Below, one piece after another: positions 572 through 55,090 of a stretch of 64,000 bases of DNA. The position numbers and the translations under genes were made by a program. The notes below the pieces were generated by a model, which made no database searches, was not told the origin of the DNA, and saw nothing but the letters and a program-made list of their open reading frames with translations. Every line of letters starts with the position of its first letter. Position 1 is the stretch's first letter. Origin of the DNA: Isoetes taiwanensis. Lineage: Eukaryota; Streptophyta; Lycopodiopsida; Isoetales; Isoetaceae. The DNA lies in assembly GCA_021234155.1 (NCBI GenBank), contig JAJEKV010000038.1, forward strand, positions 12,924,213 to 12,988,212, in the 5' to 3' direction.

Positions 572-1612
572 GGAGAAAGAAGTGTCTCCCCCTACAACAC
601 TTAGGCTTGAGGGGAGGGGAAATTATCTCCCCTATTCTCTCATAAAAAAAGGTGTATCAGGTCTTCTTTGGAATACTCAAACATGTCCGAAGATGATAAT
701 AGTGGGCTCCCCGACCCTAAAGGGAAAGGAAGGATTCTTGACAAGCTACACGACTCACCTTTGATCAAAGGAAACTGAAACCATAATTACGGATACGAGC
801 GAGCTACCACCACCGGTCATCTCCAGTGCATGAAGGGCCAGGATTGTTGTTGACCTTGCAGTTGACCCAGTCTCCAACCATACCTCTGTCCATCTTGCTA
901 CCCCACTATGCATCCCCCTTCTCATCATACCCCCCCTTACATTACGTATGGCAAATATGGTAAATCCACGGTTGACACGGTAAAGCGAGAATGGTAGAGG
1001 AAGCGATGGATGCTAGCTCCTTCCAACCGAGGGGCATTGAGAACAAGGACAACAAAAGGGAGCTACGGAGGATCTTTGGCGATTCGAGGTAAGTGATCAC
1101 TCCCCGGTTTTGTGGGGTTCCACAATCTAACTTCCGGGCAATCCATGGATGTGAGTTGGAGCTAGAATCCCCTTCCTTGACACAAATTCCCCTTTTTTGT
1201 GACATGGGATTGAGAAATTTGAAATTCCCTCTTCGATCTGAGAATTCTTCTATTTCTCCCTCTTGAATGTGACATGGTCCAATCTACCTACCGAGCGAAT
1301 GAAAGTGAAAGAACATTGAATCGCCCTCTCGGCTTTGCAACACAATTTAGATACTATGGAATCTTGGGGCCCAAACCCTGATGTGATTATTCGGACTCGA
1401 GGAGGAGGATTCCAGTGCAGACCCTCGCATGATATCTCCAACACATCCCTAAGATCTTTGAAAAGAAATTGAAAGGCAGGAACCTATCGAAATCCCTCTT
1501 GGCGGTGAAAATCTTCCCCATATTTACAACACTCGGAGTAAGGCCTCGCCTCATGGGTTAAAGAAACTCAATTATTGAACCTTGTCCCTTCTCTCGATCT
1601 CCCCCCCTATCA
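572..1612. other. Inter-ORF stretch of the LINE, no intact coding
   Basis: About 1 kb between the zinc knuckle of ORF1 and the endonuclease start. Only short open stretches exist on either strand and none resembles a known domain. I read it as the remainder of ORF1 plus the inter-ORF linker of the LINE, decayed beyond recognition. Confidence 0.5.
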
Positions 1613-2310
1613 ATGAGGATCTTAACCTGGAATCTTAGAGGTATTAAAGGGCCAACCAAAAGGAGAAGTTTTATTGCTACATTAGGGAATTCAAAGGGCG
1701 GACATTATCATGATCCAAGAACCACAGACTCCCCAAATTTGATTACGCCAATTTGGGGAATGGATCAAGCTTTGGTATGGCATCTTGCTATATCCGGCCG
1801 AGATGGTACCAAAGGGGGAATTGCTACCTTTTGGTTTAACCAGAAGCTCATTAATACCTATATCAGCCCATCCAATAGATGGCTTTGTGTCATTTTGCAT
1901 ATTAAGGACTGCCATGTGGCTTTTATAAACATTTATGCTTCCACTGACCCTTATGAAAGAGAACCTATGTGGGCTGAAATAAATAGGTGGATGAGTCAGC
2001 AACAAAATATTGACAACTGGATCATTACTGGGGATTTTAATAATACCCCCCATTGTGATATGAAGCTTGGCAATAAGATTAATATGTCCAAGAATGAAAG
2101 ACACTCTTGGGAGAATTGGCTCACTGATCAAGATCTTCTTTACATTCCTTCCTCAAACACCAAATTCTCCTGGAGTAATAAGAGGAAAGGAGACCAAAGA
2201 ACCTTTTGCATGCTGGACAGATTTTATATGCATAATTCTGCTACTTGGTTAGACAAGCGCAGACAGTGGTGACATTGCCAGCACAATCTCTGACCATCAG
2301 CCTCATTTTC
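1613..2310 (+). pseudogene. LINE ORF2 endonuclease domain (EEP family)
   Basis: Starts MRILTWNLRGI, the usual beginning of a plant L1 ORF2; the Asn of WN is a metal-site residue of the exonuclease-endonuclease-phosphatase fold. ITGDFNNTP follows at about residue 140, with the catalytic Asp and Asn of the GDFN motif. The closing motif SDH (read as ISDHQPHF) is at about 2297-2320, but in a different frame, after a stop at 2270. The enzyme would nick target DNA to prime reverse transcription. The frame change just before the SDH motif disables the protein. Confidence 0.85.
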
Positions 2311-2384
2311 TGGACATTAAAGATCTGTCTCCCAGCCCCAAAGGGAAGAATACCCCCTTCAAGTTTAACACTTCCCTGCTCCAA

Positions 2385-3990
2385 ATGAAATCCTTTTGTC
2401 AAGACTTTACTTCCTACTATTTGTCTCTTCCTAAGATTGGCCAGCATCAATCTATGAGGAGCTTTAATGACAAGTTGAAGAAGGTTAAAAATTGGGTTAA
2501 ACAATGGAGTAAAGATCTAGCCCAAAAAGGAAAGCTATTAAAACTAGTTTTTGGAGCAGATCAAAGAGGTCAGATCTCTCATTGAGAACAATCCTAATGA
2601 GGAAGCTTTGCATGTAAAAGAGGAATCCTAGAAATTCAGGATAAAACCCCGGAGGAACACCAAGTTAGAGGCATGGCTGTTAGGAGTAAAATTAAAATGT
2701 ACAACCAGCTTGACCATGAGAGCTCAAAAATGTTCTTCAGAATAGCAAGGAATAGGCAAATCAATAACTCCATCACTAAATTGGAATCTGACCAAGGAGT
2801 CATGCACACTGATGAAACTGAAATTGCTATTGCCTTTCAGAAGTTCTACACTGATCTCTTTAAGGAAGAAAGGGTTGAGGAGAGCAAAATTCAAGAGGTC
2901 TTTGAGATTATTGGTCCCCCTAATGAGGTCATGGAGGATGATTGGACTTTGGCCCCTGAACTCCCTGAGATATTTGAGACCCTCAAAAAGATGAAACATG
3001 GCAAGAGTCCAGGAATAGATGGTTTTCAGCCAGAATTTTTTGTGGAATTCTGGCCAATCATGAAGGATGATATTGTCCAGTTCATCCAAGGGATCTGGGA
3101 AGCCAAATCCATCTTTCCTACTTATAATGTGGGTGTGATTTCCCTTATTCCCAAAACTGATTCCCCTCTTAAGACTAATGAATGGCGCCCTATTTCTCTT
3201 ACCACTACCTTGTATAAGTTGGTAGCCAAAATCATTGCTGGTAGAATTGTGGTGCATCTCCACAATAAAATTAATCCTTGCCAATCTGCCTTTCTACCTA
3301 ATAGGTCTATCCTGGACAACTACATTGCAGCTAATGAGGCACTTCATTGGAACAAATTAACTAAAGCAATTGTGTGCTTCTTAAATTAGACTTCAAAAGA
3401 GCATATGGATATCTCTTGGAGTTTCTTAGAGAAAGCCCTTCATCACATTGGTATTCACCCTTTTTCATCAATCTCATTATGGGGTCCTAAAAATGCTACT
3501 TCTTGTGTTCTTATCAATGGAACACCCACAGATTTCTTTCCTATCCAAAGAGGGTAAAGGCGGGGCTGCCCCGGCCCCTACCTTTTATCATTCTGCTGAA
3601 ATTCTTACTAAGATGGTGCTAGCTTATCAAGGAAGAGGTTTAATTCAAGGCCTTAAAATGCGACTCGATCAACGGTGTCCATCCTTCAATATGCCGATGA
3701 TACCTTTATTATGACCAAAGCGAGAGAAAATAATTGTTTGGATAATCTCATGGGTGCATTACCAAGTTTGGTGCTTTGCCTCGGGATTCATCTCAATTAT
3801 GCCAAATGTTCAATTCTTGCTGATGGGTGTTACCCGATTTGAATACTCATGGAATCAAATTTGTCCCTGAGGGTCATTACTTAACCTTGTTGGGCCTCCC
3901 TCTTGCCATTCACATGTCTCACAAAGTGGCCTGGCAGCCTTTGATCAATAGGATCAGGAAAAAACTTCTTCTTCTTAAAGGCTCCCTTTC
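2385..3990 (+). pseudogene. LINE ORF2 reverse transcriptase domain
   Basis: Reverse transcriptase of L1 type, spread over several frames. The fingers/palm motifs are visible: GKSPGIDGFQPEFF (about 3001-3040), VGVISLIPKTD and NEWRPISLTT (about 3130-3200), and QSAFLPNRSILDN (about 3280-3320). The catalytic YADD is at 3690-3701 (LQYADDTF). A stop follows codon 238 of the segment starting at 2673, and the region 3390-3680 needs at least two frame changes. It copies LINE RNA into DNA at the nicked target. Inactive here. Confidence 0.9.
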
Positions 3991-40793: not shown

Positions 40794-41680
40794 CTGTTTA
40801 GTACTTGTGCACTCACTAGGCAACGTTTTTAGAGGGTCAATGTATATGCTCATCTTCGTAAAAAAAACAGCAGCATAAGCAATGATGACATTTGCAAATA
40901 TATTAGATAGCATGTCAACGCTTAAAGTGCTGAATCGTTGGCAGTTTAGTAACTCCAAGGCTCAAACACATATCACATCCAAGGGAAAAATGCATGAACC
41001 TACCCAGTTTTCTTTAATCTCTTTTAACATGAAATGATGACTTGAGGTTCGCCTATGGTACTTACCCAGATATCGGGCTTTACCAATCCGTTGCCATTTT
41101 TAATACCATGCCTAGAACCCAATATGAAAAACATCTGAGACATGAATTACTTTAGCTCCACAATTTCATGCAACTAAACACATGAATCTCTATGAAGATC
41201 GAGGATCCCAATCACCTCAAGTAAAAACATATGGACAAACAAAGATTCAGCTGGTTCACATAGCATGATATAATATGTTTGTTTATAACCTGTCTATATG
41301 GCAAGATCTATGGTACTATATATGGAAACAAGAATACTATAAGAATGAGAACTAGAATAAACTTGAATACAACTGGATTTACAAATTTTAGATGGAATGT
41401 GGTCCATTTTTTTCTCCTAAATTTATATCGATACAGTGACAGACATGAATAATGAAGCCATGAGATTTGCATTCTTGTCGACATAAGCCAAGGATTAAAT
41501 TGCAAATACCTTACTTTACTGAATATTCAAAATAATGGCTCTAGTTTTGAACTTATTTTTGGTCTTCCATTCCACCTTCATAGCTTGCACATCTGGCTAT
41601 GAATGTGCCTTTGCACAGTTTCTCAATATATAATCTCATATCTACCTTGTCTGTGACAGCAATGGTGGTATGGATACCTT

Positions 41681-41706
41681 GGGTATAAGCGCGCTTTTGG
41701 GGGACA
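41681..41706 (+). repeat. Left terminal inverted repeat of the DNA transposon
   Basis: Pairs with 49310-49335 at 25 of 26 positions. Two AAGCACCC motifs follow at 41721-41728 and 41732-41739. Confidence 0.9.
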
Positions 41707-41930
41707 ATTTTGCGAAATGAAAGCACCCCCCAAGCACCCTGCTTTGGTTTTTTATGGTGGGGGGGCTTTCATTGACGTTTTGCCGGGCTGGAGGAAAGAT
41801 TCCCCGTCACTTCCCCGTCACAAAATAGGGTTCCCGCCAATAGCTTTTCACTGTACTCCGACCTCCAGGTATGAATCAGAGCGCCAGAGGAGGATCATTG
41901 CATGTCATTTTTTCGTGAAATTATTTGGAA

Positions 41931-44616
41931 ATGGCAGGTAGCAGCAATGATTCGCCAGCCGCCGGGAGAGAAAAAAAAAGGTTAGTTTTAGGTTTCTTGA
42001 TATCCTTTCTCTTTCTTTTCGCCAAAAACTTAGTTCTTTCTTAATTTTCCTCTTGCATTTCGGATGAAAGTCGCTACTCTGATCGAGGAGTTAGCTAAGT
42101 TTCGAGGGCTATGTAATGAGGGCGGGGATCCGGAGACAATAACTTGGGATGAATGCCCTCCGAAGATTTCCGAGGTATGGTCGAGCTAATGAAGGAGGGA
42201 AAAATCAAACTACACAAAGCCCTACACGAGTTTGCAAGATCGGTTAGGGATTTGGCGGTCGAGTGTACCGGTTTGGGATCAAGAACAAGGAAGCAAGGGT
42301 TTATTTTGCAAGAGCTTTTGCATGGCGAGAATACAAGAAAAGCAAGACACGATACCGCAAAATATTTGGTTAAGCTGGGCAAAGTTTGCATTTACAGTAT
42401 GAACCAGCCAGGGAAAATGTTTAAAAATCTGGGGATGTAGTAATTTGAGACATGCTTAAAGAATATAAATGTGGGACTTGAAGCATTGCAAGATAGGGCA
42501 GGTACATCAGAAACTGAATTAAAAAGCATGTCTTCTAAATTTGTTGAGTTGCACAATGAGGTATGTAGGCTTGATGGCATGATTTTGCTTATGAAGATGC
42601 TTGCATGGCACTTGCGGGGGATATTCAAGAGCAAAAAGTTGCATTGAAGATTTCAGTTCTTTATTTCCAGAAGAAGATGGAGCCCTGAATGAACTTGCAA
42701 AGCAGGGTGATGGTATGGGTTTATCTCTCTTAACTATGGTAAGGAAAAAAAAAAGCATGATAGAGAAGAGGAGTGCCTTTCAGATGCAGGCACAAGACCT
42801 TGAGTTGCAGTTGTCTTCTTGCGGACAACTCAACAAAGATTTTCGAAACGCCATTTCTAACTTGAACGGACTTGGATCTAATTACCTTCACAAGTCTTTG
42901 ATCAAACCATATGCGAGGGTGAATGGATGGTTGTAGATGGGGAGGATGGATGCAAGGCCTGCATGCTTTCTTTTGACACACAGTTTCAGTTGCAGGTGAC
43001 ATTAGATTGTGGACACTCATACCATCTACTATGCTTCCAATTGTGCTTGGAGAATTTGTGCTGTATAGTATGCAAGGCAACTATACCTACTGGGATTTAG
43101 CGACCACGGGTGGGATATGCGAGATCATATCCCCGATCCGTAAGAAGTTTCGAGGGGGACAATGACAGGGATCGTATTACAGTTTCAAGTGATTATGAAA
43201 CTCCAGCCAATGATGATAACAACATGAAAAGAAGGCCTATAACCAGAGCCATGACCAGTCCAGCTGGAAAAGGTAATTGCATTTCTGTTAATTGAATTAG
43301 AATGTAGAAGAATGTAAATTCTTTTAATTAACATTTGTGCATTGCAGGGAGCAAAAAGAAGAGGAAGGTCTGCAGAGAACAAGTCGAGATTACTGGGTAA
43401 AACATGTTTCTTTGTTGTGTATGGATTCATGTGTAGAAGGTGTTAGTTGCTTTATTGATTTTGCGGGATCGGCATCCCCAAAAACACCAAGAGTCCAAAG
43501 AAGGCCACTAACACCAAGAGTCCAAAGAAGGCCTTTGCCACGAAATGTGAATACAATACACTGCTGATGGTCTTGAGATGATCGAGCAACACATTAGCTC
43601 AATCCCAAAAGCAGAGTACCACATTGCTTTGCCGAGAAGATGGGGTTGCTAAAGTATTAGATTTTGATGATGCCATGCCGGACAAGTGTAAGAAAGGGGA
43701 AAAGCATGCCTAGGAAGTGGAAGACTCAAATAAGGGAACTGATGGTATGAACCAATTACCATTACCATTACTAATGATATTGGTAAATTCTTGAATGCTT
43801 ACTATTCTTTTTTTTTTTTTTTTTTTTTTTGCGCGGTTCCTTTTACTACACCCCGATTACCAAGCGTGTGGAAAAGAAGACCAAAAAAGGAAGGAGAAAG
43901 TTGGAGCTGAGGGGAAAATTTGGATCATCAAAACGAAAGCGTTTGGGCGTACTTTTTGAACAAGAGCGGCGGGGTTTGCAAGCGGGGGCCTATATGAAAG
44001 CGTGGGGTTTGCAAAGCGAGTTTGAACAAAGCGGCCGGGGTTTATTGAGCAATGAAGTTGAGGACACGCATAAACAATGAGGTCTTGGTATAGAGCATTC
44101 AAATTTTGGTGCTAGTTGTGACTCACGGGTTTGTCAACCATGTGCGGTATCCGGGGTCTAGTTCAATACCGGTTGCTCGGTGTTGTTAACACTGTCTGAT
44201 AGTTCCTTTGGTGCTGCAGAGGTTTGTTCAGATGCTTTTTTTGTGCATAGAGTTAATCCTATATGTAATCCACAAATAGATCAGACAAGCACAAAGGATA
44301 CCTCTGCAGTTGATGAGGCTATTCAGGGGGTTTGCAATGAAATACTAGGTGGTAAAGAAGTTGCTAAAGAAGGTGAGTCAGACACATGTACAGGTGCTAC
44401 AAATGTAGAAGAAGATCATGTTACAAAAAAGTGGTTCTTGCCGAGAAAGAAGCTGATGTTGGAGATGAAGAGGCAATGAAAGAAGATACGGATGTTGGAG
44501 AAAGTGAAGAAGGCGATGAAAATGAAGATGGTGATGAGAGTGAAGATGATGTGGGCCCGAAACACTTGGCCAATACTATCTGCCATGATAGTGAAGAAGA
44601 AGATTCATTAAAATAG
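41931..44616 (+). pseudogene. Transposon gene 1: coiled-coil, RING-type finger and NLS protein
   Basis: An ATG at 41931 (MAGSSNDSPAAGREKKR) is followed by a possible donor at 41981. A helical Lys/Glu-rich segment spans about 42160-42900 over several frames. A zinc finger at 42951-43085 has C-x2-C-x15-C-G-H-x2-H-x2-C-x9-C-x2-C, the RING spacing. Its frame stays open to 43272 apart from one TAG at 43099. An intron 43273-43347 (GT...AG) restores the frame into SKKKRKV, an SV40-like nuclear localisation signal, and the exon ends at a donor at 43397. Further on come KSPKKA repeats (about 43490-43535), a basic region (43860-43960) and an acidic tail (44480-44610). RING fingers often act as ubiquitin ligases; here the role is unknown. 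A T run of about 27 bases at 43806-43832 interrupts the region. Confidence 0.65.
42951..43085 (+). other. RING-type zinc-binding motif in transposon gene 1
   Basis: All eight metal ligands are present in one frame: C, C, C, H, H, C, C, C. The core reads DCGHSYHLLC. The ligand order C3-H-H-C3 is that of RING-H2 fingers. Confidence 0.7.
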
Positions 44617-44959
44617 GCGAGGTTTGTTAAGGGTTTGTTAATATTTGGTGTTAATATTGGTGATTGGGGATGTATTCGATTAATGTCAGATTCGGTATGT
44701 ATCATTTTTGGAAACTTAAGTTATTCCTACAAAGAAACAGGTTATGTAATGGCCAGATTTTTGCAAGTTAACAAACCGTGTTAACTTCATATATATTTTA
44801 ACTTATATACCCGGTGGAAGAGATGTTGAATGTTCTTACACTCTTCATCGATATTATCTTGTGCTTTTACATGATTTTTGATATGAAATACAAACAGATT
44901 TTTGATATTTGTGCACAGTTGGAACTTGATTGATTTTCCTGTGTTTTTCTTGAATTCGG

Positions 44960-45182
44960 TCTGCCCCTGTTTCAAATTCATGTAAATTCAAATTCATATA
45001 AGCTCAAATTCATCTAAGTTTCAAATTCATTTAAGTTCAAATTCATCTAAGTTCAAAATTCATCTAAGTTTAAAATTCATCTAAGTTCAAAAATTCATCT
45101 AAGTTTAAAATTCATCTAAGTTCAAATACATCTAAGTTCAAATACATCTCATCTAAGTTCAAATTCATCTAAGTTCAAAGCG
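44960..45182. repeat. Minisatellite of 16-18 bp units (AAGTTCAAATTCATCT)
   Basis: About twelve units with T/A and length variation lie in tandem, in the central non-coding part of the DNA transposon. Confidence 0.9.
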
Positions 45183-45400
45183 TGCAAGGGAATATTAGCG
45201 TGAATATTCCCAAGGTAAGACCCCTTATGGAATCTAGAACTCGAGAAACTTGCAAGGGAATATTCCATGGGTACCTTTGTCAAGGAAATATTCCATAGAA
45301 TATTCCACGGGTAATACCCTTATGAATTCTAGAACTCGAAATTGCAAGGGAATATTCCATGGGTAATACCCTAGCAATTTTAGAACTCAAAATTAGAAGG
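45183..45400. repeat. Repeats of a gcaagggaatattccatggg unit
   Basis: Three to four degenerate copies of a 50-110 bp unit containing ggaatattcca and aatacccttatg...tctagaactcgaaa. Part of the transposon centre. Confidence 0.75.
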
Positions 45401-45417
45401 GCAACCCGAGGCACCAA

Positions 45418-45455
45418 AAGCACCCCAAGCACCTCGAAAGCACCCCAAGCATCCC
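45418..45455 (+). repeat. Central AAGCACCCC cluster of the DNA transposon
   Basis: Four near-tandem motifs: AAGCACCCC at 45418, AAGCACCTC at 45427, AAGCACCCC at 45438 and AAGCATCCC at 45447. The same motif occurs twice just inside each terminus. They are candidate transposase-binding sites by analogy with subterminal repeats of other transposons. Confidence 0.7.
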
Positions 45456-45599
45456 GGATATCTTAGTACGACAAATGATCATCTTCATTTACAACAAATT
45501 TAATTTGAGATACAAGGAGGATATGGAGACAAGGTAAATTTTTGTATTAGGATCAATTCTTTACAAGTTACATTCACTTCATTTACAAGTTACAAGTTA

Positions 45600-45950
45600 A
45601 GAAATCATCTAAGATTTCTTGGAAGTCCTTTAGCGATTGATTTTTTGGAAACTTCGGACATCACATTTGTTCTTTGAGTGCTTTTGGACTTACTTTTAGC
45701 ACCAGATTTCTTGGCAGTAACTGCGGACATCACATCACCGAATCTGCATTCTTGGATGTCCTTTTAGCGCAGATTTTTGGAAACTTCGGACATCACATTT
45801 GTTCTTTGAGTCTGCTTTTTGGACTTACTTTTAGCACGCATTTCTTGGCAGCCGGACATCACATCAGCTTACGAGATCTGCATTCTTGGATGTACTTTTA
45901 GCACATTTCTTGGAAGCCGCAGACATCACATTTGCTTACGAGTCTGGCGG
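45600..45950. repeat. Degenerate tandem repeat with cggacatcacat phrase
   Basis: At least five copies of a 60-75 bp unit (tttcttgga...cggacatcacat...ttggact-acttttagcac), with heavy length variation. Confidence 0.75.
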
Positions 45951-46399
45951 AGGTAAGCAATTAATTATTTGCTCATTATTATGCTTCTTGGACAACTTAT
46001 ACATGTTTTCCTCGTCGACAACATCCGCAATTCAACTTTTGACAATAACAAGATGAGAATAGTTGCGGTATGCGGCTTGTTTACCGAAGTTCATATTTTT
46101 TGTAGGACCTCAACTCATAGTACTTCCCTGTAATGATGTGCTCTCTTCGCTGAATTTTGCACCCCGACCATCTACAAAGCCGTTTCTACTACATGCATGG
46201 CCTCGGTGCACTTTACTAGCCAAAAATCATACTTGTTTTTTTGTTTACGGTTCGCTAACAATGGCAAAGTTGTCACTGGCTCTATGAGGCTAGCTTTCCA
46301 TTGATTATCACCCTCAAGCGCACATGCTCAATTATATCTTCTCGATCCACCTCCTTTGGTTTGAGTTGAGGAATAGACAAAGGCTTTTGTTCTTATCAA

Positions 46400-48860
46400 A
46401 TTCACACAACTCTTACATAGACCCTTCGGCATGCATCACAAAAACATGAAAGTGTTTTGTGTGCCATCATAACAGAGCCTTTCTTTACAAAAGGTGCGAT
46501 CATGTGAACTTTTTTCGTCCCTTTTAAAGTGTCACGGTCATACATACGATAGACACTCTCTACTTCTCCAAGTCCCGATAAGCCAAAAGTTCCTACAAAA
46601 TAATGCAAAATGAGAACACCTTTTGAATAGTAAAAAAATGTGGTGAGAAGAAATGTGTACACGATAGAATTATAGTCTTTACGCTTTCCCTTTTCACTAA
46701 AGTACCTCGTAGAAAAAGTACAAACATCTTTTGCATTTCTTAGTGGTGTGGAATTTCTTTTTCAAACATCTCACTTGTAAGAACTCTTTTGATCACTTTT
46801 GCACCATCGTGCTCACCTTTTCCATGGTGAGGCAAAGAAGTGCCAAGTTATCTTGATGCCTCTCATCCGAAAATACACGCCTAAATAATAAAATGCTCTT
46901 CTTTGATTTGAACTGGCGGCACATCCATCGACCAGAAAACATGGTTATCAACTTCTATATTTCCGGCTTTAAGAGCATCACTATGCCTTTGCAAACAATC
47001 TTTGCACAAATAAGCAATCATGGTCCCTATCATCGAGATGTAGAAATTTGTTTCCTTCACAATCTTCCCGTCACCAACAACGGGGTTTGCCTTCTCACCA
47101 TCTTTTGCATGTCTATATGTTATGTGCACTAGAAGCGTGCCCGGTCATTTCTCCAATGGAGGGTTTGTATTTCTGCTTTGTATCTTAAAGGTATAGTTTT
47201 ACGCAAAATCAATGACATGTACCATTGTACTGGAGGGAATGTTTGCAAGCGGGTCTTTGAACTTTTCATTTGCCATCTAGCGGTGTAGTTGTGAGGAATA
47301 AAGCGCTTAATAACACTCTTGGCATGCACAAAAACTCTTGCGAGAGAAGTGGATTTGTAAACTAGCTTCATAACATCCTTGGTTTTGGTTGTCCACCTTT
47401 TTTAATGAAGGTCTCGCACCTAAACAATGTACAAGCAAGGAAGAGCACATGTCAACCACAATCAATGGCATATATGTTGCTAATAAAAAGTGAGTCACCT
47501 TTTCAAAGTTCTTCCATTCCACCTTTGCCATGTGGCTGGCCTCTAAAGGACAAAGTTGGAACTTTTAATTCCACAATGCACATGACATCCTAAGGCATGC
47601 ATCTTTGTGCAACTCCACATTCTCATTCTTTTCACATAAGAAACTTTTCCACAAAACGCTTGTGTTTGCAAAGACATGGTTCCTTGCTTGACAAGTAGGA
47701 CCAACACCACATACCTTACATTGACAAATACATTGTTCACCATGCACATTCTTTGTCCCTTCTAATGCTATTCGAGCACGCCTTACATACTCCATTCTCA
47801 TGTGATAGATGCAACAACAAGTCTCTTTCGTTTAACCTCCTCACAAACTTTGGCTTCAAAGCTTCAAAAGTCTCAATCAATGCAAATCTCTACGGATGTG
47901 CTTTTTGAACCTTTCAAAGAATGTGACACACGCAAGTACCACAATATTTAGCAAGATGAATATGAATATACTAGGATTACTTACTCATTTTTCTGAATTG
48001 AATATGAATCCTAAGATTACTTACTTGTGGTTCTTCCGGAAAATGAATTGCATGCATCGAGTAAGGCTTCGTTCCTTTCTTCCATTGGGTGTTCTTCTCA
48101 ACTTGATAACTTGTCTCTTGTTAGGAGACACCCGAAAGTGTTATTTGTCCAAAAGCTGAACTATGTTTTCTCTATCTTCATCACTCAACCCGCCGGATCT
48201 TTCCTTACGTTTGAACATACTCCAAGGGCCTCGGTTTACGCTAGATTTCTCTTATCAATATTTTGCATAAAGCTGTTTTTCTTCTCAAGTTTAAGACCTC
48301 ACAAACCTTGCTTCACAGACCCTTCTTTCAAAGCCATCATGATAGTGGATGATCTTGCATTGCAAATGTCTGTTTCTTTTTTTTTTTTTTTGTTGGTGGC
48401 GAGTGTCTTTAACACTCTCAACAACATGTTTCATTGCGGTAACCTCTTTCTTTCCTAGCATCTTGAATTCGGTAGTGTGCGGCCTATTTCGTGCAATGAC
48501 CTCCTCTCGTCCTTAGGAATCATGTTTTTGCATCTTTTTTCTATGAATTCGACTATGATCCGGGCTTCTAACCTGTTTCACCCTCAAAGAAAGCCCTTCT
48601 TTTCTTTTTTGCTCGCTAAAGAATTCAATCCTAATCTTTCGGCTCTCCTTCTCCTTTGGTCTCTTCTCTTTGCAGCCATAATTTTTCTTGTTGTACTTTT
48701 TGGGGACATGCAACAACACGGTTTCTTGTGCTTTGGAGAACATGGGGAATTTTGTGTAAAGCATGCCTCCCTTGTTTAATTGGCGTGCGGTGGTGAAGTC
48801 TCATATACCTTGTTTTCCCCTTGCAAGGTGTGATGGACTCTCAATTTCTGGCCTTCCCCA
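46400..48860 (-). pseudogene. Transposon gene 2: DDE-like transposase, multiply frameshifted
   Basis: Read on the minus strand, parts appear in this order: a Lys-rich N-terminus (48764-48513), SDEDRENIVQLLDK (about 48160-48205), and a Cys/His-rich block (about 47735-47580) with CxC, CxxC, WKSFLCEKNEN and HKDACLRMSC. VIDFA*NYTFKIQ follows at 47179-47217 with a stop where Glu is expected, then AEIQTLHW (about 47150-47177), HITYRHAKDG (about 47100-47130) and DDRDHDCLFVQ (about 47000-47035). SDGCAA lies at about 46920-46940, HHGKGEHDGAKVIKR at 46786-46830, and a C-terminal LSCFCDACR finger at about 46430-46460. I recognise this motif series from uncharacterised transposase-like proteins of ferns and animals. 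The acidic residues of DFA, SDG and GEHDG are candidate catalytic residues (inference). At least six frame changes. Confidence 0.7.
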
Positions 48861-49309
48861 TCAATGGAATCATCATATTAAACTTCTAAGAGATTTCTTT
48901 GGTGGGTAGTAATTCAAATCCACTCCCAAAGATTCTCACGCCAAATCCAAATCCACCTTGAAATTTAGCTTCATACTGCAACAAGAGAATCAAAGTCCAT
49001 GCCATGCAACAAAATGCACTCTCGGAAAAGAAGGAGTGAAGAAAAAAATTCAGTGCAAGAACCAAGCAAAAGACATGGTTACCCCCCGCCCATTTTTGCC
49101 AAGAATGACTCTCCATTTTTTTTGAAATCAAAATGGAGCTCCCTCCCTTCCCCGAAAGCGGCGGGAGATCCGGTGCCACTAATTTCGTCTAATTATGATT
49201 AAGAAAAAATTAAAGAAAATGTTAACTACCCGTCAAAACAGGCGATGCCAAATTTTTAAAAAACACCCTAAGCACCCACAAAGCACCCCGATGTCGCGAC
49301 ATGAATTTC

Positions 49310-49335
49310 TGTCCCCCAATAGCGCGCTTATACCC
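49310..49335 (-). repeat. Right terminal inverted repeat of the DNA transposon
   Basis: Reverse complement of 41681-41706 with one mismatch. AAGCACCC motifs occur just inside at 49270-49277 and 49281-49288. Confidence 0.9.
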
Positions 49336-49919
49336 CCTTAGAGAAAGTGTCTGTCATCGATTTTGGAACTGCTAGTTGATGAGGACCCTGAATCATGGAG
49401 TAGAAATAAGAGTGTTTGGAATCACCCATCAGATGGGGCAAATACCAATGGAAGGCAAGTGAGGCAACGTACATAGGAACGATGGATCAAGCTTGAAGAA
49501 AACGTAGAGTAAGTCCAACATTATAGTTTGCTATTGTAGTCACAAAATAAAAGTTGTAAATTTAGGCGAGCCATTATTGTTTTGGGCCCTATCCGCATTG
49601 AAGGCTATTATCTAACCTTCTTGTTGCAGTATCCATGGTTTGATGCTAGGAATCTGCAACTTTTAACACTACATAAATCAGCATAATTTTTTTTCTGAGT
49701 AACTATGTTTCATATTTCTTGTTCTTAGATTTACTGTTGGCTTCCCCAAACAAATCATTTCAAAAGGAAGGATATATATTGTAGGAAATAAATGTTCAAT
49801 TTTGGCCTTCACCAATAGGTTCTTGCGAATTTGTAAGAGGTAAATCAAATCGCATAAGCATAGAAAGGACTTTAGAATCTTTCAACTAGGTACTGCCAAA
49901 TTATCATGCTTTCACCAGA

Positions 49920-52189: not shown

Positions 52190-52500
52190 TAGAAACGTGG
52201 TTGTTTTGTTGATTCTGGAAGCACTCATAATTTTATTTCTGTAGATCTAGTACACGATCTGGGGCTGGAGTTGAACGAGGTGGCTCCGTATATGATTGAG
52301 TATGAGGCCGGACCACAAACTCAGTGTCACAATGAGCAAGCACGGGGTGTTTGCTTGGAGTTGTTTGATAAAGAGTCGCGGGTTGTGACATCTATGTGCA
52401 TAGATTTAGACATTGCTCAGTTGAAGCGATATGATGTCATTCTAGACATGAAATGGTTACAACACGTCGAGCCACAAATTCTCTGGCCAACACACACACC
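52190..52500 (+). pseudogene. Ty3/Gypsy aspartic protease
   Basis: In the frame beginning near 52203 the sequence reads CFVDSGSTHNFIS, the active-site D-S-G of retroelement pepsin-like proteases. [14 protein letters not shown] follows at about 52425-52460, the usual D-x-I-L-G-M-D-W-L phrase with two changes. It cleaves the Gag-Pol polyprotein. Shifted relative to gag. Confidence 0.8.
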
Positions 52501-53620
52501 TTGATTTTCAATTTGCCGTCAAGTGAAGTAGTTAGTATTCAAGGTTTACCACATGTAGAGTCTGGTAGACTCATGTCAGCCACTCAGACTAAAAAATTTT
52601 TTAAAGTTAATACAAATGCACTTTCTTTAATGTATTTAAGAAGGGATGATTTGGTTATCAAATCGTGTAACTCCTTAGTGGTTAACACTGGAGTAAACCC
52701 TGAGGTAGATAAAAGACTAAAAGGTCTTTTGAATACTTTCTGGGATGTGTTTCCAGAGGAGTTACCCGAGGGGCCATCACCCTCGCGGGGTGTCGAACAC
52801 GAAATTGAGCTTGAACCTGGGGTTAAGCCCATGGCACGTGCTCCCTACCGATTAAGTCCTCTGGAGCTTGAAGAGGTTAAAAAGCAAGTGAAGGAGTTAT
52901 TAAGCAAAGGTTTTGTACGACCAAGTAAATCACCTTTTGCGAGTCCCGTGTTGCTCGTTAAGAAAAAAGACCGTACTATGCGGATGTGCATAGATTACCG
53001 TGCACTTAACAAAGCAACTATAAAGGATCGATATCCTTTACCTAGAGTCGATGATATTTTGAATCATGTTGGAGGAGCAAACTGGTTCACCAAGATAGAC
53101 CTCCGAAGCGGATATCATCAGATTAAGATTCGGGAAGGGGACGAGATTAAAACTGCGTTCAGAACTTATCAAGGTCATTATGAGTTTCTGGTTATGCCGT
53201 TTGGACTTACAAATGCTTCTGCAACGTTTATGTGATTAATGAATCAGGTATTCTCTGAGCATTTGGACAAGTTTGTCGAGGTATTTTTAGATGATATTCT
53301 CATCTACTCCCAAACTATTGAAGAACATTTCGCTCACTTGGAACAAGTTCTTCGAATTTTGCAAGAACACAAACTCTATGCAAAGATCTCCAAATGTGAC
53401 TTCTTTAAGCAACAGGTGGCCTATTTGGGACATATCCTTTCCGGTGAAGGTGTGTCACTTGATCCCGCCAAGGTACAGGTGGTACAACAATGGCTCCCAC
53501 CAGAGAACGTTTCGGAATTACGGAGTTTTCTGGGGTTAACAACGTACTATCACAAATTCGTACCCAAGTTCTCTAAAGTTGTACCTGCCCTCACTGATCT
53601 TTTGAAAAAAAGATCACGAT
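52501..53620 (+). pseudogene. Ty3/Gypsy reverse transcriptase
   Basis: Clear RT core. [19 protein letters not shown] and [15 protein letters not shown] precede [32 protein letters not shown] carries the first catalytic Asp, then [11 protein letters not shown], and VFLDDILIYS carries the Asp-Asp pair at about 53283-53312. A TGA at 53233-53235 interrupts between PFGLTNA and the Asp-Asp motif, probably from CGA by deamination. The connection motif LRSFLGLTTYY follows. Confidence 0.92.
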
Positions 53621-54090
53621 TTTGTGTGGAGGAGAGAGCAGCAAGAGGCGTTCCGGCGCATTAAGGACCTGCTGGTTAGCAGTCCTGTGTTAAAGGTGTC
53701 GGACTTGAATCAGGCATTCAAGGTCTATATTGACGCTTGTGAGCAAGCATTAGGGGCAGTACTAATGCAGCAAGGACATGTGGTGACTTATGAAAGTCTA
53801 AAACTAAGTCCTGCTGAAAGGAATTACGCAACCTATGAGCAAGAATTGTAGCCATTGTGCATGCGTTAAAGACTTGGAGGCACTACTTGCATAGTGGGAC
53901 GAGCAAAGAACCGCGCAAGTTTATCGTCTATACTGACCATAAACCGTTGAGGTTCTTGCAAAGTCAAGCCGAGATTAGCCCGAGACAGGCTAGGTCGCTA
54001 GACTTCCTCCATGAGTTCCATTTCTCCATCGAGCATACGCCTGGTAAAAATAATCTAGTTGCCAATGCGTTATCAAGGGTTAAGCATATA
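53621..54090 (+). pseudogene. Ty3/Gypsy RNase H domain
   Basis: In the 53624 frame YIDACEQALGAVLMQQ carries the first Asp and LSPAERNYATYEQEL the Glu region. A one-base loss at about 53850 breaks the frame before the H-A-L-x-x-W-R-H-Y-L phrase at 53860. YTDHKPLRFLQ (second Asp) and IEHTPGKNNLVANALSR (final Asp replaced in N-A-L-S-R context) follow. It removes the RNA strand during reverse transcription. Confidence 0.88.
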
Positions 54091-55090
54091 AATACCTTAA
54101 CAACTTTGGCAAGTGACCTTATACAAAGGATCAAGGATGCATATCCTGAGGATCAGCAAGATCCGGCAATGGTCAAGCTCGGAGAGCTGTGGACTGAGCA
54201 AGAGGGATTGCATTTTTACAAAGGAAGGATTTACGTTCCTTCGAGTGGGAATCTCAGGGAGTCAATTCTGCATGGGCACCATGATACTCCACAAGCTGGG
54301 CATGGAGGCGAATGGAAAACGTATGAATTGGTTAAGAGATTCTACTACTGGCCAGAGTTGCAGGATCAAGTCAAGGACTTGGTAAGTCACTGCATGGTGT
54401 GTCAAGCTGTGAAGGCGGATCATGGGAAAACCCCGGGATTGTTACAACCAAATGAGCATTGGGAAAGCGTGAGTATGGACTTTATAGTCGCGTTATCTAG
54501 AACTCCTAGGCAACATACTCAAATTTTAGTAGTAGTGGATCCGTTAACCAAGTATACTAAGTTCATAGCATTAAAAGGGGAGGCTACGGGACATGACGTA
54601 GCAGTTGCCTATATGCAACACATATTTCCAACTTTCGGACTTCCCTTGTCCATTGTAAGTGATCGGGACACTAAGTTCGCGGGTCACTTCTGGAGAGATC
54701 TCATGAGAGGATTGAGGATCCGATTGTATATGAGTAGCGGAAATCATCCACACACGGACGGGCAAACCGAGCGCATAAACACGATCCTAGAGGATATGTT
54801 GCAAAGCTCTGTCCACGAGAAGCAATCCAGGTGGGAAGACTATCTACCGTATCTGGAGTTTGCTTACAATAATAGCCATCATACGGGAATTCGGATGACC
54901 ACCCCCTTTGTGGCTATGATGGGTCGAAATCCAAGGGCTTATTTAGGTATACATAAACACCTCCGAACCGAAGTTGCAGTACATATACTCCATGATATGA
55001 ATGCAATCTTGCGGCAATGCAAGCAAGCTTTGTGAAAAGCTCATCAGCATAAACGTGATATCTCTTATACGGAAGGCGATTATGTTTTCC
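54091..55090 (+). pseudogene. Ty3/Gypsy integrase
   Basis: HHCC zinc finger: GHHDTPQAGHGG...RFYYWP...HCMVCQAVK. The catalytic core has D of SMDFIVAL (about 54470-54495), D of IVSDRDTKF (about 54650-54675) and E of DGQTERINTILE (about 54758-54790). The D-D-35-E arrangement and the frame are intact over 392 codons until a TGA at 55033. It joins element cDNA to the host chromosome. Confidence 0.92.

Follow-up and report, generated by a model that had tools for sequence, protein, structure and literature searches.

The 7.65-kb segment at positions 41681..49335 of the window, the 64,000-nucleotide stretch of Isoetes taiwanensis DNA analysed here, is best explained (with a probability of about 0.85) as a degraded copy of a terminal inverted repeat (TIR) transposon, in which a three-aspartate transposase is accompanied by a facing, co-inherited nuclear RING-H2 protein, most likely a helper of the ubiquitin-ligase type. 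The left TIR (41681..41706, plus strand), which starts with GGGTATAAGCGCGC, is complementary to the right TIR (49310..49335, minus strand) at 25 of 26 positions, and the repeat finder ranked this pair first among the 70 inverted pairs detected over 8.2 kb. Two copies of CCTT, at 41677..41680 and 49336..49339 (unstranded), flank the repeats as the target site duplication. Both the 25/26-bp repeats and the CCTT on either side had been read in the earlier note, and both were recovered here.

Searching the genome (1,658,258,908 bases in 1110 contigs) with both ends, as the earlier note had advised, revealed a multi-copy family, with the left end in 30 rows corresponding to 28 genomic places and the right end at 26 places. 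The genome contains the exact 13-mer end 43 times, 40 of them at family ends, compared to 2 occurrences of the reversed control; pairs of this exact 13-mer delimit no small TIR-bounded derivatives. We examined the window and 27 further loci, which were fetched via the left end, the side that holds the RING gene. Both ends are recognisable in 20 of these 28 loci. Fifteen were recognised automatically, spanning 5.8-7.75 kb with identical 4-bp flanks in all 15, and these copies share a pairwise identity of 92-96%. Alignment added five two-ended loci, with the duplications TTAA (L016), ATAT (L019), CGTG (L035) and GTTA (L031, its damaged right boundary being placed by eye), and L034, the sole two-ended locus without matching 4-bp flanks, the sister version of which is L035 with its CGTG.

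Altogether, the 4-bp flanks are identical in 19 of the 20 two-ended loci, against a chance of 1/256 per locus; a check of duplications across copies had been proposed in the earlier note. Their sequences vary (CCTT, TATA, AATG, AGGG, AGAG, CGTG, TTGC, TTAA and others), and part of the best explanation is that the target is cut with a 4-bp stagger at no fixed target word. The flanks agree within each of three locus pairs (window/L030, L023/L032 and L034/L035) at 88-92% identity, so each pair represents one insertion, and no insertion is counted twice among the 19 matching duplications. Each pair stems either from a segmental or tandem duplication or from a second haplotype that was poorly purged. 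Moreover, the joined flanks of the window copy match a related unoccupied site (C913:3349763-3349925) with 75% identity over query positions 2-137; this site is a paralog and is 27 bp longer than the query.

Transposase sequence is present in 25 of the 28 family loci, the other three (L017, L025 and L032) having none within the stretch fetched. The presence of the RING gene in these loci was selected for by fetching through the left end. The outcomes that the earlier note had named as contrary to its reading, namely other boundaries, no 4-bp duplication or two genes never found together, were not encountered, with one or both ends missing in 8 of the 28 loci. These results support the reading of the element as a genuine TIR transposon that was once mobile, duplicated 4 bp of its target and has two convergent genes between its ends. 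Two rearranged places were also seen: at C952, the orientation of a left and a right family end (8702446 and 8709537), separated by 7 kb, implies an inversion, and the copy at C856:131030-143126 has its ends 12.1 kb apart, presumably owing to a nested insertion.

The window copy is broken in both genes, partly perhaps through assembly error. No open frame of at least 150 residues is left inside the element, none of the 15 family copies with frames listed has an uninterrupted transposase, codon-position counts at nine loci gave no sign of constraint within the window's family, and a majority consensus of the family copies did not restore the open frames. The published I. taiwanensis assembly was built from Nanopore reads and polished with racon and pilon (PMC8566536). 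Over 10 kb of flanks and element, L034 and L035, two versions of one insertion, are 88% identical and show 391 gap openings, so some of the broken frames may reflect assembly error rather than decay, two causes that these data do not separate. Elsewhere in the window, reverse transcriptase, RNase H, H2C2 and integrase matches at 52435-55032 (plus strand) mark an LTR-retrotransposon-type polyprotein remnant, and endonuclease-like and reverse transcriptase matches at 1562-3386 (plus strand) a LINE-type remnant; Rfam gave no match anywhere in the window.

The transposase gene occupies 45921..48743 on the minus strand in several exons with a broken frame, and all 863 residues of a composite, read through frameshifts and introns, map to this interval (863/863). 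The whole motif series reported in the earlier note, from DFA to CFCDAC, was located between 47216 and 46429 on this strand: VIDFA (47202-47216) and NYTFK (47184-47198), which a stop codon separates in the window copy, EIQTLHW (47153-47173), DGCAA (46915-46929), HGKGEHDG (46803-46826) and the cysteine motif CFCDAC (46429..46446). When the composite was aligned with 67 proteins of at least 480 residues, drawn from 127 relatives, three aspartates proved invariant: composite D457 in DFAENY (47208..47210; 68/68 rows), D551 in SDGCAAQF (46927..46929; 67/67 rows) and D592 in HGKGEHDG (46806..46808; 67/67 rows). H429 and H520 are likewise invariant (68/68 each), and in the CFCDAC motif the cysteines C689 and C692 are kept in 64/66 and 64/64 rows, respectively. 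The earlier note had called the protein DDE-like; a transposase with three invariant acids stands, and its catalytic set looks DDD rather than DDE. A crude propensity plot placed strands before the first aspartate, after it and before the second, whereas the helix expected at the third is not clear, so that an RNase H topology is at most suggested. At the N-terminus, a winged helix-turn-helix is predicted, part of which (VCEVLNLRRK) lies at 48277..48306 on the minus strand; the Pfam family HTH_29 matches here with E 2.6e-4 and 21.4 bits, below its cut-off of 28.1. By eye, the C-terminus had looked BAH-like, but such a domain had no profile support and is not claimed. Short tandem repeats lie at 45000-45180 and 45600-45960, at the 3' end of the gene; in other copies, they give rise to a repeated, Lys/Ser-rich C-terminus.

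The composite matched 33 proteins with E values of 1e-3 or below, and a search that started from an alignment of 32 members gave 221, of which 120 were listed; no functional name or "transposase" label is attached to any of the 33 or of the 120 listed. These relatives come from Klebsormidium, moss, liverwort and conifers, the named sources being Klebsormidium, Cryptomeria, Ceratodon, Taxus and Calypogeia. In a tree of 65 rows, the composite falls within the green-plant part, where its neighbours are L036 and metagenome rows (support 92/83). Searches against Pfam, NCBIfam and PHROGs gave nothing at cut-off and isolated weak matches in the latter two, and DUF6597 matched three of 32 members, at best with E 2.4e-4 and below cut-off in the one shown. 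The only match in a PDB sequence search, to a CRISPR protein at E 1, was taken as chance. No relatives were found in viral contigs, in GTDB genome contigs or, at the DNA level, in plasmids.

The RING gene faces the transposase on the plus strand, running from an ATG at 42064 to a TAG at 44614-44616 (42064..44616) with several introns, and its frame is broken in the window copy. Exon 1 extends from 42064 to about 43272, with borders set by eye, and contains at 42951..43073 a complete C3H2C3 pattern, the zinc-ligand arrangement that defines RING-H2. A 75-nt GT-AG intron (43273..43347), likewise read by eye, is followed by an exon that opens into the nuclear-localisation-like signal SKKKRKV (43350..43370), and the acidic C-terminal tail lies at 44440..44613, its start being approximate. 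The complete pattern, the intron opening into SKKKRKV and the acidic tail had each been described in the earlier note and were each located. Pfam RING matches stay below their cut-offs, zf-RING_5 having E 0.0022 and 18.3 bits against 27.9. Among solved chains, those closest to the protein are RING-H2 E3 ligases, the best ten with E 0.009-0.05 and an Arkadia chain with E 0.0086. The RING pattern is the basis on which the protein may have E3 ligase activity.

A 402-residue composite of the RING protein has no homolog at E 1e-3 among 5.8 billion proteins. Within its own genome, it has at least 108 rows (103 of 3087 first-look candidates being scored), including at least 71 outside the window's family at 31-46% identity. 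Twenty-nine of these 71 outside rows are without a stop, 18 of them being 1150 nt or longer and so close to full length, and frames that stay open at such divergence point to coding constraint.

To assess the pairing of the two genes, 70 RING loci were compared with 93 transposase loci, all outside the window's family and among the matches listed; for the transposase core, 165 matches were obtained and 150 listed (104 of 11,718 candidates being scored). Among these matches, 22 pairs lie within 9 kb of each other, compared to 0.07 expected by chance, and all 22 are convergent like the genes of the window element, the facing order that the earlier note had read from a single copy. Within 15 kb there are 26 pairs among the matches listed, of which 24 are convergent and the other two are cross-pairs of neighbouring elements. 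For the other 48 of these 70 RING loci, the matches listed include no transposase within 9 kb. These counts support convergent RING and transposase genes as a conserved architecture rather than a one-off capture.

The partnership does not extend to the whole transposase family. None of 69 P0002-ranked transposase places has a RING row within 15 kb among the matches listed, and one such place, L036, has neither a RING gene nor a TIR pair in the 7.2 kb around its intact transposase relative; the RING partner therefore belongs to the clade of its transposase. L036 also carries at 934-1479 (plus strand) a DUF7869 gene (Pfam E 2.3e-30), 2.3 kb from the intact relative, in which the motifs LDNCAGQNKN and THEDVDA show a similar-looking spacing of acids, and it may represent a related transposase family.

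The left end of the element can be followed to divergent RING relatives as well. In the 200 bases before one of them (C1018:6264785), a sequence matches the left end of the window element at 44 of 61 positions, beginning from the first base. The first 14 bases of this terminus occur 22 times in the genome, compared to none for the control, and at four of the 22 places (in C907, C1018, C1042 and C1087) a listed RING relative follows on the same strand after 429-430 bp; one of the four is the source place itself, and the distance in C1042 was extrapolated from residue 24. A related terminus thus precedes divergent RING relatives, as judged from the one terminus read, that of C1018, for which an exact pattern found no inverted partner.

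Based on these findings, we propose that the element belongs to the class II TIR transposons and presumably moved by cut-and-paste. The minus-strand gene would encode a three-aspartate transposase with an N-terminal helix-turn-helix, which would act on the GGGTATAAGCGCGC ends and join them to target DNA cut with a 4-bp stagger. The plus-strand gene would supply a nuclear, acidic-tailed RING-H2 protein, inherited together with its transposase clade and most likely acting as a ubiquitin-ligase-type helper, with either the transposase-DNA complex or host silencing or repair proteins as its possible target. Since many distant relatives have the two genes in this facing arrangement, the RING partner probably helps the element to move. 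The accessory ubiquitin-ligase-like protein posited in the earlier note accordingly stands as a RING partner that is no one-off capture, its putative ligase activity being read from the RING pattern. Plant transposons are known to capture genes, and the RING gene might be a passenger taken from the host with no part in transposition, an idea with which the absence of RING rows from the 69 P0002-ranked places would agree. We nevertheless regard it as improbable, given that all 22 pairs, from divergent families, are convergent, that RING frames stay open at 31-46% identity, and that the RING composite has no homolog outside this genome at E 1e-3 among the 5.8 billion proteins. A RING finger with ubiquitin ligase activity is found in RAG1, a descendant of a transposase (PMC4411706).

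As to classification, we regard the element as a TIR transposon whose accessory architecture is new and as a probable member of Sola, to which it is likened by description rather than by sequence. The earlier note had held that no plant superfamily fits, a view that is not supported as it stands in the light of Sola, which is described as having a DDD transposase, 4-bp duplications, a length of 2-9 kb and TIRs of 11-1124 bp, and as present in Physcomitrella (PMC10741241), from which Sola1 is also reported (PMC9033089). The 4-bp duplication, the 26-bp TIR and the 5.8-7.75 kb of 15 copies all fall within these dimensions, the three aspartates are invariant, and the transposase has a moss relative in Ceratodon. 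On this description, the balance tips slightly towards an ordinary unannotated Sola element, perhaps Sola1, with a lineage-specific extra gene. However, Sola2 elements insert at AT-rich AWWT targets (PMC3627910), which differ from duplications such as CCTT, AGGG, AGAG, CGTG and TTGC, and a RING partner is not among the Sola features described in the available text of PMC10741241 and PMC9033089. The missing profile matches at cut-off would suit a superfamily of its own, defined by a DFAENY / SDGC-QFK / HGKG-D transposase, as would the absence of a match named transposase among those listed and of DFAENY from the papers of a full-text library; but missing names do not show novelty, and we hold this reading as a tentative and rather doubtful one.

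Chapaev, of the CMC group, resembles the element in its 3-4-bp duplications and in the RING finger within the transposase of two subgroups (PMC4079192, PMC4411706), and with RAG1 it shares a RING finger tied to a transposase. In these systems, the RING is fused into the transposase and the termini begin with CAC, whereas the window element has a separate convergent RING gene and GGG. Since Chapaev ends are described as invariably CAC...GTG (PMC4079192) and the element has GGG...CCC, we reject this assignment on its termini and consider it very improbable. Similarly, Kolobok combines a DDD/E transposase and 4-bp duplications with lineage-specific second proteins, but its targets are TTAA only and its accessory proteins are nucleases, a helicase and KolX (PMC9587614). 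Kolobok and piggyBac were rejected on target, TTAA being found in one of the 19 duplications (L016).

Three distant transposase relatives (P0030, P0092 and P0116) have a C-terminal DGNC stretch, which we take to be OTU-protease-like. A Pfam OTU match was obtained for P0092 alone of the three, at E 0.045 and below cut-off, and we treat the stretch as a lead, not as evidence. A bolder and unlikely reading would make the family a superfamily-level lineage of green plants distinct from Sola, in which one clade encodes a facing nuclear RING ubiquitin ligase and needs it for transposition, and in which ubiquitin control recurs, some distant relatives ending in an OTU-protease-like stretch.

The analysis brings to light an abundant green-plant transposase family without a Pfam model, the matches seen being annotated as hypothetical or uncharacterised proteins only. 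A 2015 paper states that, among transposable elements, only Chapaev has RING fingers, with RAG1 as a host descendant (PMC4411706); in contrast, many divergent elements within one genome here have a separate RING gene that faces the transposase. That this gene travels with the transposase across so many of them argues that it forms a conserved part of the machinery. A question thereby becomes testable: whether a transposon's own ubiquitin ligase may free or renew its transposition complex, or may instead remove host silencing.
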